NCBI GenBank assembly: GCA_025056555.1
Contig: JANWVZ010000015.1
Coordinates: 1-35,457 of the forward strand
Direction of reading: 5' to 3'
Source of the DNA: Gemmatales bacterium
GTDB taxonomy: Bacteria; Planctomycetota; Planctomycetia; Gemmatales; HRBIN36
DNA length: 35,457 nt
In this document: positions 22,313 through 27,837 of the stretch, piece by piece
Numbering within the stretch: position 1 is the stretch's first letter
Layout of the letters: every line of letters starts with the position of its first letter
Position numbers and translations under genes: made by a program
The notes under the pieces: model-generated
What the model saw: the letters and a program-made list of their open reading frames with translations, nothing else
What the model was told of the DNA's origin: nothing
Database searches by the model: none

Positions 22313-22849
22313 AGTATTGCTCCGATTTGCCAAGATTATCCTATGCTTCGCGTTGTCTAGTTCCTGCTGCAGTCGCGATCCACCGAACAAATGCGTGCAC
22401 TGGTATGACGGTGAATGGCAGGGGTAAAAGCGATTGCTTGGCTCAGATTGGCCGGTGGCAGAAGACGCCACCCTGCCGTGCTCTGTGCAACGGGACCTGT
22501 TCAGCCTGGGAACCGGCTATTTGCGAGCATGAGCGAAAACGTTCCACGCCAAGGACATAGCTGCGGCGGCCCGCCCGAAGTGCGCTAGTGTACACTTAAT
22601 AGACAGTCCTGGCAAATGGCTCAGTCTGACGTCACGACCGTGCCGCTGGCCAGCACCGTCGTGGAAAGACCAATGCGGTCTTATTGCGAAAACGCCATAC
22701 ACTGAAGACTCTTCACCACATTCGTGTGCGATCGCTGCACACGGATGCAGATAAGACACCTTTCGGGCAACGTCTATCCCAAGGCGCTGGATGTGGAAAA
22801 ATATGATTTTTCGTCGGCGGATCAGCGGAAATTTTACGGGGGAAGAAAA
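22313..22849. promoter_or_regulatory. Divergent intergenic region rich in inverted repeats
   Basis: About 540 bases lie between the phosphatase and prepilin peptidase starts (410 if the peptidase starts at 22724). No gene is supported. It contains several inverted repeats: GGTGGC-7-GCCACC at 22454-22472, AAGTG-10-CACTT at 22578-22597 with the palindrome GTGTACAC inside, a 31-base imperfect palindrome at 22633-22663, and AAGACC-5-GGTCTT at 22666-22682. None has a convincing T-run. The last two lie in tandem on the plus strand ahead of the prepilin peptidase and may form a structured leader. Confidence 0.45.
22633..22682 (+). other. Tandem hairpins upstream of the prepilin peptidase gene
   Basis: The first hairpin pairs CACGAC with GTCGTG and GTGC with GCAC, broken by one C-C mismatch, around a nine-base loop that overlaps the palindrome GCTGGCCAGC. 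The second, three bases later, pairs AAGACC with GGTCTT around AATGC. Function unknown: a leader regulatory element, a small RNA or a protein-binding site are all possible. Confidence 0.45.
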
Positions 22850-24040
22850 GTGCTGAGCGGACTGGCAGGATTGGTGCTGGATCACAGCTGGGTGGCGCTG
22901 AGTGTGGCTTTTGTCGCGGGGGCAATCGTCGGCAGTTTCCTGAATGTGTGCATCTATCGGCTGCCGACGGAGCTGAGTATCTTCTGGCCCCCTTCGCGCT
23001 GCGGTAGTTGCGGACAGTCCATTCGTTGGTACGACAACATTCCGCTCATAAGTTACTGGGTATTACGAGGGCGGTGTCGGCATTGCGGCACACGTTTTGC
23101 CATGCGCTATTTCTGGATTGAGCTGCTGACCGCCTTAGTGTTCAGCGTTGGCTTCTGGTGGGTGGTGCAGCGCGATGGTCATGGTTTCGTAACCCAGGGC
23201 GGCGCTTCATTATTCACCCGCGAGGAAGTCCAGGCCCTGGACGGCTTGGCCGCAGAACAGCGTCTGCGGGCCTTGCAGGAAAAGATAACCTTGCGCCTGA
23301 TGGGGGTGTGGTTGTATGACATGGTATTGGTGAGCCTGCTCGTTGTAGCAACGTTCACCGACATAGACACGATGACGATTCCGCTGCGATGGACGGTTAG
23401 CGGAACAGTGCTGGGATGTCTGGCCGGAGCGTGGGTGGCCTGGCCCTGGCCGATGGCTGCGGAGTTGCCGAATCTTTCTCCCTGGGAAAGGCAACTGGTG
23501 CAATATGGCGGTATCGTAAACACAGGGACCATTATGCCCGTGCCTCTGGGGGCGCAGATGTGGCCGATATGGTTTCCCTTGCCGGATTGGCTGCCGCCTG
23601 GAAGCTGGTGGACAGGCTTGGCGAACGCAATAGCGGGTGCGGTATTTGGTACATTGCTGATGCGCCTGATTCGCGGGGTGTTCTCGTGGGCATTCCGCCG
23701 GGAAGCGCTTGGCTTAGGCGATGCCGACCTCATGATGCTCATTGGCGCGTTTCTCGGTTGGCAGGGAGTGCTGGTAACTTTGACGGCGGCAGTATTTCTC
23801 GCCCTAGGCTACGGCTTGTTCCTGCTGATCACCGCTCGCGGGCGGGAACTCCCCTTCGGTCCATTTCTGGCCGGGGGTGCACTGCTGACGCTTTGGGGAG
23901 CCGCGTGGCTAATGCGGCCTGCGCAAGCAATGTTTTTTGATCTGCCGTTGTTGTTGCTGCTGGCTGGGGCCTTCACGATACTGTCCGTGTTCCTGGGCAT
24001 GGCTATACGGTTGATTACGCTCATCCTGTGGGCGCGGTAG
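22850..24040 (+). CDS. pilD: Prepilin peptidase (type IV leader peptidase, A24 family)
   Basis: An inner-membrane aspartyl protease that cleaves and usually N-methylates type IV prepilins and type II secretion pseudopilins. Numbering from GTG 22850 (396 residues), I see GSFLNVCIYRLP at 28-39, the zinc-type cysteine pairs at 51/54 and 76/79, the first catalytic Asp in TDIDTMTIP (Asp171) and the second in GLGDADL (Asp291), plus several membrane helices. It is longer than typical enzymes: extra soluble stretches occur at about 107-150 and 200-250. GTG 22850 has GGGGGAAG immediately upstream; the frame stays open to GTG 22724 and ATG 22745, which would add 42 or 35 residues of unlikely composition and lack ribosome binding sites. 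No pilin genes are in the window. Confidence 0.93.
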   Translation: MLSGLAGLVLDHSWVALSVAFVAGAIVGSFLNVCIYRLPTELSIFWPPSRCGSCGQSIRWYDNIPLISYWVLRGRCRHCGTRFAMRYFWIELLTALVFSVGFWWVVQRDGHGFVTQGGASLFTREEVQALDGLAAEQRLRALQEKITLRLMGVWLYDMVLVSLLVVATFTDIDTMTIPLRWTVSGTVLGCLAGAWVAWPWPMAAELPNLSPWERQLVQYGGIVNTGTIMPVPLGAQMWPIWFPLPDWLPPGSWWTGLANAIAGAVFGTLLMRLIRGVFSWAFRREALGLGDADLMMLIGAFLGWQGVLVTLTAAVFLALGYGLFLLITARGRELPFGPFLAGGALLTLWGAAWLMRPAQAMFFDLPLLLLLAGAFTILSVFLGMAIRLITLILWAR

Positions 24041-24063: not shown

Positions 24064-24277
24064 GTACCGTAAGCGAAAAGTAATCCGCGTTGGGTCAGGT
24101 ACCGAAAAACGTGCTTGGGTCCTGTGAATTCTTGAAGCGAATAACGACAAATCCATTTCGCTCATGGTTTCGTGAGTTATGCTTTGGAGAGATTCCCAGC
24201 TTGGATCATGAGCATCTGAGTCCATTATTTTTGAGAATGACATCATATCTAAGTCCTTATCCTTGAAGGGACAGAGA

Positions 24278-26287
24278 ATGCGAGAGGGAGTTTGTGAACT
24301 GGTGTCCTGTGGCGGAGCGCCGTCGGCGCAAAGAAAGGGCTGGCGTCCGTATCTGGCCCGTTTTGATGAGATGAAGGCCACTCGGCAACTGCCAAGTCCG
24401 ACCGGAGTGGCGATGGAAATTGTGCGGTTGACGCAGGATGAGGGCGTCTCCTGCGGCTCGCTGGCGCGGGTGCTGATGGCGGATCCGGTGTTGTCCGGAA
24501 AAGTGATCAAGTTTGCGAATTCGGCCCTGATGCAAACGGGACGTTCGGTAAACTCGGTGCAGGAAGCAGTGCTGCGCTTGGGGGTCGGAACGTTGCGGCG
24601 GATCGCGCTCAGTTTCTCCCTGGTTTCGGCATATCGGCAAGGGCGCTGTGAGGCCTTTGATTATCAGGCTTTCTGGTCGCGCTCTCTGGCTCAAGGTGTG
24701 GCTGCGCAGGAACTGGCGCGGCAGACGCGTTTGGTGCCGCCGGACGAAGCCTTTACCACCGGCCTGTTGGCTCACATCGGACAATTGGCCCTGGCCAGCG
24801 TATATCCCGACAAGTATGCCGAAGTGCTTCGCCAAGCGCAGGGAAAGCCCCTCGAGGGCTTGCTACTGCTGGAGCAGGAAGTATTCGCGGCTAATCATTG
24901 TGAACTGTCGGCAGCGATGTTCCTGGATTGGGGATTGCCTGCGGAGCAAGCGGTGGCGGTGGAGCGCTACGTCTTCGGAGAACCCGAAGATGCCTATGAA
25001 GGCACAAAGCGATTGGTACGCCTGTTGCGAGTAGCCCACCTTGTCGCCGATTTATGCCTGACGGACAGCCAGCGCCGTGCCGCGGTGGCTCAACAATTGT
25101 TAGCCCGAGCGGAGCCCTTACCATTGGCACCGCTGCAACTGGCCGAACTGTTTGATCGGTCTGCCGCAGAATGGCAGAGTTGGGGACGCATCCTCGATAT
25201 TCGCACGCACTCGGTCGGTTCCATCCGCGATTTGGTACAGCAGCAACAAGCTGTATCCTCGGTGGCGACTAATCCCGCGGAAGGTGTGTCATCCGATGCG
25301 GCTGGGCCGAAGTGGCGAGCCCTGGTGGTGTTTGCAGACCTGCCGCCGGGACCCGTACTCAGCGAAACATTGCAGCAGGCCGGTTACGAAGTCTTGCGCG
25401 CCCATGATGCGGAAACCGGTCTGGCGCTGGTGCTGGAAGCACTGCCCCAATTCATCCTGGCGCCGTTGCAGGTGCGCAGCCGGGCCGGCGCTGCCGCGAC
25501 CCCACCAGCTTGGGATGCTTTGCGCTGGTGTCGCCAACTCCGAGAGACCCAGGTAGGGCGACAGTTTTATCTGCTGCTCTTAGCGGAACAGGCCTCTGAG
25601 GAGCAAATCGTAGCGGGTTTTGAAGCTGGGGCTGATGACGTCATCAGTTGGCCCCTAGCCCCACGAATTCTCCTGGCGCGCTTGCGCGCCGGCCAGCGGG
25701 TCGTTGAACTCCAGCGCGAGATCGAACGCGAACATGAGGAATTGCGTCGGGTAACCGCTGAACTGGCTATTGTCAATCGAAAACTGCAGGACGCCGCTCT
25801 CACCGATCCGCTTACCGGTCTGCCGAATCGCCGCTACGCTTTCGAGCGACTACAGCAGGAATGGCATGAGGCCACACGACACGAGTTGCCCTTATCCTGC
25901 TTAATGCTGGATGTGGACCACTTCAAACGGATCAACGATACGCATGGCCACGATGTCGGCGATGTCGTGCTTCAGCAGACTGCCGACTTGTTGCGTCAAG
26001 CAGTGCGCCGCAGTGATGTTCCCTGCCGCATCGGTGGAGAGGAATTCCTGATTGTTTGTCCGCGAACCAACTTACAAGGTGCTGCTACTCTGGCCGAACG
26101 GATTCGACATTTGGCCGAACAAAAGGTTTGGGGCACGGACAAGACACAGATGCGCGTTACTCTGAGTGTGGGTGTGGCAACCCGCTCGGAGAAAGCGCGG
26201 GTTCCGGAGGACCTTATCCGCCTCGCCGATCAGGCCCTGTACGCGGCCAAACAGGCAGGACGAAACCGGGTCCGCTGCTCTTCCTAA
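24278..26287 (+). CDS. HDOD - degenerate receiver - GGDEF protein (diguanylate cyclase)
   Basis: A 669-residue cytoplasmic signalling protein with three parts. Residues about 35-235 are an HDOD domain, with the typical LPSPTGVAMEIVRL opening. Residues 345-475 fold like a response-regulator receiver, but the phosphoacceptor Asp is Ala395 (FILAPLQV), the acidic pair is missing from LVVFADLP, and the conserved Lys is Trp458 (SWPL). A helical, probably coiled segment (475-505) leads to a GGDEF domain with LTDPLTGLPNRR (508-519), LDVDHFKRINDTHGHD, and the active-site GGEEF at 586-590. The inhibitory-site RxxD is present at 577-580. The cyclase should make c-di-GMP, with product feedback. ATG 24278 has AAGGG seven bases upstream and replaces an in-frame TTG at 24263. 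It converges on flgL, 36 bases apart. Confidence 0.93.
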   Translation: MREGVCELVSCGGAPSAQRKGWRPYLARFDEMKATRQLPSPTGVAMEIVRLTQDEGVSCGSLARVLMADPVLSGKVIKFANSALMQTGRSVNSVQEAVLRLGVGTLRRIALSFSLVSAYRQGRCEAFDYQAFWSRSLAQGVAAQELARQTRLVPPDEAFTTGLLAHIGQLALASVYPDKYAEVLRQAQGKPLEGLLLLEQEVFAANHCELSAAMFLDWGLPAEQAVAVERYVFGEPEDAYEGTKRLVRLLRVAHLVADLCLTDSQRRAAVAQQLLARAEPLPLAPLQLAELFDRSAAEWQSWGRILDIRTHSVGSIRDLVQQQQAVSSVATNPAEGVSSDAAGPKWRALVVFADLPPGPVLSETLQQAGYEVLRAHDAETGLALVLEALPQFILAPLQVRSRAGAAATPPAWDALRWCRQLRETQVGRQFYLLLLAEQASEEQIVAGFEAGADDVISWPLAPRILLARLRAGQRVVELQREIEREHEELRRVTAELAIVNRKLQDAALTDPLTGLPNRRYAFERLQQEWHEATRHELPLSCLMLDVDHFKRINDTHGHDVGDVVLQQTADLLRQAVRRSDVPCRIGGEEFLIVCPRTNLQGAATLAERIRHLAEQKVWGTDKTQMRVTLSVGVATRSEKARVPEDLIRLADQALYAAKQAGRNRVRCSS

Positions 26288-26323: not shown

Positions 26324-27781
26324 TCACCGCAGGAAGTCCAACAGATTCGGTTGCAGCACCATAGCGGTCGCTCCCAGCAGCAAAGTCATCAGATTTTGTC
26401 GTGCCTGCAGCTGCACCACCAGTTCCGCCAGGTCTGCTTCTTCCAGGTGTCCGAGCCGTTCCTGCAAATCGAGTTTCGCTTGCTGCATCTGTTCTTCCAG
26501 GGTGTCTAACCCGGCTAACGTGGCTGACTGTTCACCCAGCGCGTGTAATACTCTGGAGTGAGCGGATTCGATAGCCGAAATCATGCGACTGATTGCCTCA
26601 ACTTGCTCTCCACCTGACAACGAGCGAAACTGGGCCAAATCATCGCGCAAGCCTATCAAGGCGGTGAAGATGTCATAACTTTGCGGAAACTCGATCCAAT
26701 TTTCGCCAACCCGTCGGACAGAAGCAGTGTTTAGAAACAGAACATTCCCCTGCCCGTCCTGGAGAATCTGATCCGTAGTGAAGGCAATCGCACTCGCGGA
26801 GGCTCCGCCATCGAGCGACATGGTTCCATGGGCCGTGATTGCCACCGAGCCTGCGAATCCTGGAGTGATGTTCGTGGTGTCAATAAACACCACTTCGCCG
26901 TGCGGACCAACGACACGCAAATCAGTATCACTATTGGTCCAAGTGATCGTCGGGCCACCATTGAGCCAGACCACGCCGCTTGTTCCCGTTCCGCTGGTAT
27001 CCTGGAGAAACAGAGTGTGGGTCCCGCTGGGCCCTAAAATGGTGTCGCCATGTGCGGAACTGGCGCCCGGCGCCACCCCCGAACCACCGGCATAAATCGT
27101 GGTGGTGTGTGAGAGCAACACGCGCACACGTCCCTGGACACGACTGGTCCCCGTGCCTAAGGCCAAGCCTGTTTCATCGCCGATGATGAAGCCGTTATCT
27201 GGCCGAAGCCCGCCGAGGAGTTCCAGCCCGCTGTAAAGAAAACGAATCCACTCGCCGTGGGCGACCGGCGCTGTTGCTGTTCGAGCGTCGCCCCGATATT
27301 CAACACGGACGATTCGTCCCTGATCGTCCCGAATGGCCTGGAATGGCGGTTGAGCGGTGGTGCTGCCGGCGAAGACATAGTGATCCGGCGTGCGACTATT
27401 CGCCAAGGTCAATGCCTGTTCCAATAGGCCATTAACTTCCGCCGCCAGCGCCCGCCGGGAGTCTTCGGTAAGGGTGTCGTGAGCACCTTCGCTGGCCAGG
27501 GCCCGCGCGCGCATCAGGATACCACTCATCTGTTGCAACGCCTGTGTGGAAGCCTGCAGGGTCAGGCGTGCGTCACGCAGGTTATTACTCCACGTTTCGA
27601 TTTGTTCCAAGGTGCTGCGGTATGCCTGCGCCGTGCTGAACCCCACCGGATTGTCCGAAGGCCGCAATAACTTCTTACCCGTAACGGCCTGAATGTGCAG
27701 CCTCTCGACCTCCCTGAGGGCGGCATGCAAATGACTGATCGAGAGATGGACCAGATTAGTAAAAGTAGTGCGTTCCAGCAT
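26324..27781 (-). CDS. flgL: Flagellar hook-associated protein 3 FlgL
   Basis: FlgL is the second hook-filament junction protein, exported through the flagellar type III system. The 485-residue product keeps the flagellin-like helical ends: the N terminus through LRPSDNPVGFSTAQAYR (39-55) and TPDHYVFAGS (131-140), and a C-terminal coiled region from about 370 to the end. Between about residues 200 and 365 is a Gly/Thr/Asp-rich, beta-like insertion that makes it much longer than the E. coli protein of about 317 residues. Start ATG 27781 has GAGG six bases upstream; an in-frame TTG at 27799 is rejected. It is the last gene of the flagellar operon. Confidence 0.94.
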   Translation of the reverse strand: MLERTTFTNLVHLSISHLHAALREVERLHIQAVTGKKLLRPSDNPVGFSTAQAYRSTLEQIETWSNNLRDARLTLQASTQALQQMSGILMRARALASEGAHDTLTEDSRRALAAEVNGLLEQALTLANSRTPDHYVFAGSTTAQPPFQAIRDDQGRIVRVEYRGDARTATAPVAHGEWIRFLYSGLELLGGLRPDNGFIIGDETGLALGTGTSRVQGRVRVLLSHTTTIYAGGSGVAPGASSAHGDTILGPSGTHTLFLQDTSGTGTSGVVWLNGGPTITWTNSDTDLRVVGPHGEVVFIDTTNITPGFAGSVAITAHGTMSLDGGASASAIAFTTDQILQDGQGNVLFLNTASVRRVGENWIEFPQSYDIFTALIGLRDDLAQFRSLSGGEQVEAISRMISAIESAHSRVLHALGEQSATLAGLDTLEEQMQQAKLDLQERLGHLEEADLAELVVQLQARQNLMTLLLGATAMVLQPNLLDFLR

Positions 27782-27837
27782 GGCTGCCTCACTTTGCAAA
27801 AGTCTAGCATACCAACAACTCCGGAGGCGTGCTGCGA

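Follow-up and report, generated by a model that had tools for sequence, protein, structure and literature searches.

What controls a putative diguanylate cyclase whose receiver domain can apparently no longer accept a phosphoryl group? The question is raised by a gene of a Gemmatales bacterium (Planctomycetota; assembly GCA_025056555.1, contig JANWVZ010000015.1), found within a stretch of 35,457 nucleotides that was analysed as a whole and is here called the window. Its product combines an N-terminal HDOD domain, a receiver-like middle domain and a C-terminal GGDEF domain. Our preferred explanation, to which we give a probability of roughly 0.6, is that it is a predicted cyclase of the MmoQ type in which the receiver has become a pseudo-receiver acting as dimer clamp and relay, input having moved to the HDOD domain.

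The gene and its surroundings

An initial annotation of this DNA had placed the gene at 24278-26287, between a prepilin peptidase and a flagellar operon; the reading frame, its forward strand, its coordinates and its neighbours all proved correct (Table 1). The gene encodes 669 residues, with the prepilin peptidase gene upstream and the flagellar genes downstream on the opposite strand. The latter include flgL, flgK, a sub-threshold match to FlgN, flgI, flgH, flgA and two genes of the flgE/F/G type. In a second genome of the same genus (hereafter the sister), flgL-flgK and a prepilin peptidase gene flank the gene in the same way, and the gene begins at the equivalent ATG. The HDOD and GGDEF domains were also found on either side of the middle domain as described (Pfam, E near 1e-50 each), together with the GGEEF motif and the RxxD pair R577/D580. 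The motif and the metal- and substrate-site residues expected of a diguanylate cyclase (GGEEF, D545, K550, N553, D554 and D562) are all there.

A scan for promoters and terminators at the gene gave no signal above that of shuffled sequence, and a search of the whole window with Rfam models gave nothing at gathering scores. A short block 5' of the gene (24164-24186; ATGGTTT, TGA, TATGCTTTG) is kept in the sister, the intergenic region around it having otherwise drifted; the block itself gave no promoter-like match and no Rfam match.

Table 1. Features of the cyclase gene, its product and the adjoining genes (positions in the window)
Feature	Position	Strand	Basis or remark
Prepilin peptidase (type IV leader peptidase) gene	22724..24040	+	upstream of cyclase gene; likewise in sister
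HDOD-pseudoREC-GGDEF diguanylate cyclase gene (predicted)	24278..26287	+	669 aa; ATG 24278, stop 26287
HDOD domain, residues 38-228	24389..24961	+	Pfam 4.4e-50; best solved match HDOD of MmoQ (3ljx, 3p3q)
Degenerate receiver domain, residues 345-478	25310..25711	+	five-strand receiver fold predicted
Phe352-Ala353 where acidic pair belongs	25331..25336	+	alignment columns, 119 members
Pro396 at phospho-accepting Asp column, end of predicted beta3	25463..25465	+	alignment, structure model
10-residue insertion, beta3-alpha3 loop, residues 400-409	25475..25504	+	2/119 members: window and sister only
Ala436 for conserved Thr/Ser	25583..25585	+	alignment
Trp458 for conserved Lys	25649..25651	+	alignment
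alpha5 and continuous helix 462-507, likely coiled-coil linker	25661..25798	+	predicted structure, alignment
GGDEF domain with DPLT, D545, GGEEF, R577/D580	25796..26269	+	Pfam 507-664, 4.4e-51
R577/D580 inhibitory-site pair (RxxD)	26006-26017	+	alignment
GGEEF motif	26033-26047	+	alignment
flgL-like flagellar gene (Pfam Flagellin_N)	26324..27799	-	convergent with cyclase gene; likewise in sister

A receiver by fold but not by its residues

The proposal that the middle domain is a receiver was upheld by structure prediction. An AlphaFold2 model of residues 341-482 (32 aligned rows; pLDDT 90.8) confidently adopts the receiver fold, and its 50 listed structure matches are the receivers of PleD, ArcA, KdpE, WspR and others, with Z scores of 18.1-19.6. 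The top match among those listed, with many ties, is to residues 2-129 of PleD (Z 19.6, rmsd 1.5 over 128 residues), and the PhoB receiver is also present (Foldseek and a second aligner). At the level of sequence profiles the resemblance is fainter: the NCBIfam PhoB and YycF models match far under their equivalog cut-offs, and Pfam Response_reg matches residues 361-469 with 20.4 bits (E 6e-4) against a cut-off of 30.2 bits.

The five residues of the phosphotransfer signature read F, A, P, A and W in the window protein and G, I, P, A and W in its sister, when aligned among 119 family members. The initial annotation had put the phospho-accepting position at Ala395; the Asp column in fact coincides with Pro396, where predicted beta3 (392-396) ends. 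It had been right that the acidic pair is missing (Phe352-Ala353 stands in its place) and that Trp458 replaces the conserved Lys, and to its list we add the loss at the Thr/Ser site (Ala436). Three residues before the Lys position there is a Val (Val455), where 104 of the 119 members have Tyr or Phe. Beta3 ends without an Asp, and the nearest acidic residue beyond the strand, Asp413, is Gly in the sister and so does not qualify as a substitute. The domain therefore fails to qualify as a true receiver of PF00072, which requires a score above the cut-off and an intact DD, D, T/S and K. It answers to the description of an aspartate-less receiver, having Pro396 at the acceptor position, and to that of a pseudo-receiver, being recognisable as a receiver by fold (Z 18.1-19.6) while keeping none of the five phosphotransfer residues. 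All this supports the earlier idea of a phosphorylation-incompetent pseudo-receiver between an HDOD domain and an intact-looking GGDEF domain.

In a model of the full-length protein (45 rows, pLDDT 89.2) a single helix, residues 462-507, runs from alpha5 of the receiver through to the cyclase; the pTM of 0.54 makes the arrangement and orientation of the domains in this model unreliable.

Erosion of the receiver across the family

The family alignment contains the window protein and 118 other members, to which 143 frames had been reduced by omitting L001, L006-L009, L011, L012 and L015 (duplicates or other proteins), further duplicates, and frames spanning no more than 520 model positions. Most partial matches, a few other members and those under the E-value limits are lacking from the set, so that erosion may be undercounted in what follows. 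In scoring signature residues as kept, Asp or Glu was accepted at the acidic pair, and either Thr or Ser at site four.

By this measure, all five residues are kept in 94 of the 119 members and the phospho-accepting Asp in 110. Severe erosion, with two or fewer residues kept, affects 13 of the 119 (one of them, L109, is gapped at the Lys column), and only the window protein and its sister keep none. On a quick tree built from the HDOD and GGDEF columns alone, with 30 of its 116 inner branches open, severe erosion requires at least nine changes; several relatives have lost parts of the receiver switch independently. As to whether the complete loss is conserved, a point raised by the initial annotation, it is common to the one same-genus genome compared but is not family-wide, so it is lineage-specific and older than the split of the two species. 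Since that second, independent genome has the same loss, with no insertion or deletion in 669 residues, sequencing error and a fresh pseudogene can be rejected as explanations.

Two further observations concern the gene copies themselves. At L093, L096 and L097 there are tandem cyclase pairs in which one receiver is intact and its neighbour's is eroded, and the HDOD-REC-GGDEF gene L014, carried on a Thauera plasmid next to another GGDEF gene, encodes a receiver that is partly eroded.

What has been kept and what has drifted within the genus

Over the 669 aligned residues the window and sister proteins are 73% identical; the closest named match to the window protein, from a Gemmatales MAG (isolate SKYB77), is the same protein as that of the sister, and we treat the two records as one genome. 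The identity is unevenly spread, at 86% for the HDOD domain, 60% for the receiver and 81% for the GGDEF domain, whereas in all five of the remaining pairs whose GGDEF domains are more than 60% identical the receiver is the better conserved of the two. Compared with close intact pairs, the receiver of this genus thus changes faster, although in part this is a family trait, as the receiver averages 4 points below the GGDEF domain (sd 8) when window and sister are excluded and all pairs are taken together.

Might the receiver then simply be decaying under relaxed constraint, as a mere spacer in a constitutive cyclase limited by expression and product feedback? The low identity would fit, as would the drift of alpha1 (2 of 10 residues identical between window and sister), of the beta4-alpha4 connection (1/4) and of alpha4 (4/9). 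Identity is also low in beta4 (3/6) and the beta3-alpha3 loop (3/17). Yet the linker length has been kept exactly, there is no indel along the entire protein, 42 of 43 core hydrophobic columns are still hydrophobic in the window protein (41 of 43 in its sister), and beta5 (4/4) and alpha5 (15/17) are nearly unchanged, so that we regard mere decay as distinctly unlikely. The other well-kept elements are beta1 (5/5), the coil (25/29), alpha3 (7/9) and alpha2 (7/11), and outside the receiver the cyclase site is kept as well.

These figures are best read beside those of the intact pair L039/L040, in which alpha1 (9/10), alpha4 (9/9), beta5 (4/4) and alpha5 (17/17) are all conserved (in the row for the loop, gaps shared by this pair were counted as identical). 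Because beta5 and alpha5 are equally kept there, their conservation in the window genus is what would be expected of any working member. Alpha4, which forms part of the dimer face in DgcR, has drifted, so that constraint is not evident over the full alpha4-beta5-alpha5 face. Elements through which dimerisation of a receiver is read out nevertheless persist, as does the RxxD pair for product inhibition. Asp454 and Arg468 are both present in the window protein, 14 residues apart like the pair D104-R118 of the DgcR dimer (PMC8041772, where D104 is once printed as D109), and all but one of the 13 severely eroded members, the two of this genus among them, have Asp or Glu at 454 together with Arg468; the exception is gapped. 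The Lys column and the Asp of DxLT lie 52 apart in 116 of the 119 members, among them the window protein. Along the helix, a single heptad line takes in Leu503, Leu496, Leu489, Ile482 and Val475, and Ala506 and Ala507 occupy the two alternative positions, in keeping with the register-switch model; the pattern is imperfect, as Arg or Gln is frequent at position 489 across the family.

A maximum-likelihood estimate for the receiver in this pair gave dN 0.303 and dS 3.8. With dS saturated, neither dN/dS nor the pattern of conservation amounts to a formal test of selection, and dN/dS was dropped as a proof of it.

The main rival to our preferred explanation is that the pseudo-receiver is itself a sensor, whose binding of a small molecule (c-di-GMP or another ligand) or of a partner protein sets the output of the cyclase. 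There are precedents: the pseudo-receiver of ShkA binds c-di-GMP on its beta5-alpha5 surface and that of KaiA has a ligand near the beta3-alpha3 loop, according to the accounts in PMC12632262 and PMC7010744. In the window protein, beta5-alpha5 ranks with the best-conserved elements of the receiver, and the beta3-alpha3 loop carries the 10-residue insertion specific to the genus. Against this, the inserted loop is the least conserved element between the two species and also the least confidently modelled part of the receiver (pLDDT 61), which speaks against a pocket there, and the conservation of beta5-alpha5 in the intact pair means that no new function need be invoked for it. Conservation falls on beta5-alpha5 and the coiled coil rather than on a pocket, and we consider a sensory role of this kind unlikely.

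Phosphorelay partners of the family

If the ancestral receiver was a working switch, what phosphorylated it? Three genes adjoining intact members encode HPt proteins of 130-155 residues by Pfam, and when 21 genomes were searched for HPt with Pfam, 12 had a match situated upstream of a family gene (in genome G341 it lies upstream of a second family copy, itself a partial match). With a model trained on the HPt proteins so found, an HPt domain was detected upstream and on the same strand for 77 of 117 scoreable members. It lies 20-132 bases from the family match in 59 of the 117, at loci including L041, L042, L043 and also L013, where it is the end of a hybrid kinase; in a further 18 it lies at 1.8-2.7 kb, a distance that fits a tandem cyclase copy in between, as seen where both copies were collected. 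We conclude that linkage to an HPt gene is, on this evidence, the commonest state among planctomycete members, and one in which the window gene is not found: the Pfam HPt model detected nothing near it. Among open-licence papers we found no report of a planctomycete pair of HPt and HDOD-REC-GGDEF genes.

In a plain table, HPt linkage is more frequent with intact than with eroded receivers (68 of 94 against 9 of 23, Fisher p 0.006; the sister was included and the window protein left out, and one of the 118 was dropped for too short an upstream stretch). Scored by the phospho-accepting Asp alone, the values are 72 of 109 where it is kept and 5 of 8 where it is lost (p 1.0), and for independent pairs on the tree the median p is 1. 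An association between HPt absence and receiver loss is accordingly not claimed, as it vanishes once relatedness is considered. Moreover, the intact members of the window gene's own clade, L013 excepted, have no linked HPt either, so that any order of events in the loss of relay and receiver is conjectural.

Among the neighbours scanned, two intact proteobacterial members have a kinase close by. L013, on a Methylomonas plasmid, has the same HDOD-REC-GGDEF order and stands directly behind the gene for a PAS-GAF-HisKA-HATPase-REC-REC-HPt kinase, and at L003 a kinase gene is the third downstream, on the other strand. Neighbouring reading frames in GC-rich loci were chosen by codon-position GC, so that missing neighbours at such loci are weak evidence.

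The window genome has a single HPt match, on another contig, in a CHASE-PAS-HisKA-HATPase-REC-REC-HPt kinase. Together with a second protein of the genome, a REC-GGDEF protein with a well-scoring receiver (76 bits, well over the Pfam cut-off), this hybrid kinase could be taken to favour the idea that the unphosphorylated domain still answers a two-component partner, either by pairing with another receiver or through contact with a kinase. Alpha1, with which receivers engage kinases and HPt proteins, is the most changed helix of all in the window genus, and among ten neighbouring window proteins scanned there is no kinase or other two-component gene product. Although models of this sort are discussed for CmrT (in PMC12632262), we hold such an arrangement to be very improbable here.

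Distribution and relationship to known systems

With the thresholds used, the gene is present in at least two of 102 genomes of the order, at least 23 of 294 drawn from the phylum (some through REC-GGDEF parts only) and at least 76 of 154 from the class of genome G256; these are lower bounds, the best-ranked candidates of each genome having been scored. Members also occur in Proteobacteria. In trees, the window and sister proteins fall within a 10-row clade (support 100/99) with proteobacterial sequences and a single planctomycete family (L016 and L017), a mixture which suggests that horizontal transfer took place at some point in the history of the gene; the trees are unrooted, and bear on transfer but not on its direction.

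By domain order and homology the window protein is MmoQ-like (it belongs to this clade, and its HDOD domain matches 3ljx, the part of MmoQ that was compared). Its HDOD part matches the protein from Methylococcus capsulatus (the organism given in PMC7994243) over residues 37-311 (E 1.9e-56). The gene arrangement on the Methylomonas plasmid recalls the mmoQ-mmoS pair (PMC7994243), but that relative has an intact receiver and an adjacent kinase, whereas the window protein has neither a functional receiver nor a linked kinase or HPt gene.

In having a degenerate receiver directly before a helix and a GGDEF domain, the protein also resembles PleD of Caulobacter, a receiver-pseudo-receiver-cyclase protein in which the degenerate second receiver serves, in part, for dimerisation of the cyclase (PMC12632262). 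PleD is among its best sequence matches (residues 410-665, E about 4e-48). Ahead of the degenerate domain, however, PleD has a phosphorylatable receiver where the window protein has HDOD (38-228). As in DgcR and WspR, its alpha5 extends as a single helix up to DxLT, and Leu, Ile or Val occupies one heptad line along it, in agreement with the register-switch model (PMC8041772), but DgcR is activated via its phosphorylatable Asp (PMC8041772), and the window protein lacks the switch residues and has the extra HDOD domain.

Pseudo-receivers and aspartate-less receivers in general have the receiver fold without phosphotransfer residues (PMC12632262, PMC4395418), and GGDEF and HDOD partners are described as enriched or highly associated with the aspartate-less kind (PMC4395418). 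The window protein differs from other pseudo-receivers in the loss of all five residues at once, in an HDOD-GGDEF protein that has many intact relatives of the same architecture. Within a single architecture, with a near-fixed linker and one readout, the family provides receivers that are intact, half-eroded or fully eroded, so that the step from phosphorylated switch to structural module should be directly measurable in it, and the poorly understood HDOD domain becomes a testable cyclase input.

How the output may be set

Our preferred explanation, with the receiver as clamp and relay, would run as follows. The ancestral protein would have been switched by an HPt or hybrid-kinase phosphorelay, phosphorylation of the receiver changing the alpha5 coiled coil and so the cyclase dimer. 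In the genus of the window bacterium this phosphorelay input would have been lost, leaving the receiver as a dimerisation and relay module only, which would hold the alpha5 coiled coil over the pair of GGDEF domains. Control would probably have fallen to the other sensor domain, HDOD, at the N terminus; contact of HDOD with a partner protein or ligand may then set c-di-GMP output, as the initial annotation had supposed some such signal to do, expression of the gene and feedback by the product at the RxxD site being further influences. Flagella would be the likeliest output, in view of the position of the gene and of the motility functions of HDOD proteins in other systems (SadB and GsmR, PMC6543031; I2285, PMC9040570), though this is the weakest step of the scheme.

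A broader and much more tentative proposal is that the HDOD-REC-GGDEF proteins form a natural series, in the course of which control of a c-di-GMP enzyme by phosphorelay was repeatedly taken apart. It would lead from an intact, HPt-linked ground state, through partly eroded copies (which at three or more loci stand in tandem with an intact copy), to the genus of the window bacterium, where the signature residues are gone and HDOD might be the sole input, driving flagellar behaviour in a genome with two detected cyclases.

The window and sister genomes agree in their counts of c-di-GMP-related domains, each having two GGDEF proteins, three PilZ matches and five HD_5 matches (one of those in the sister has stops), with no match to EAL in either. 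At 87% and 93% completeness, respectively, some genes may be missing from these counts. By domain matches, both bacteria have a very small c-di-GMP network.
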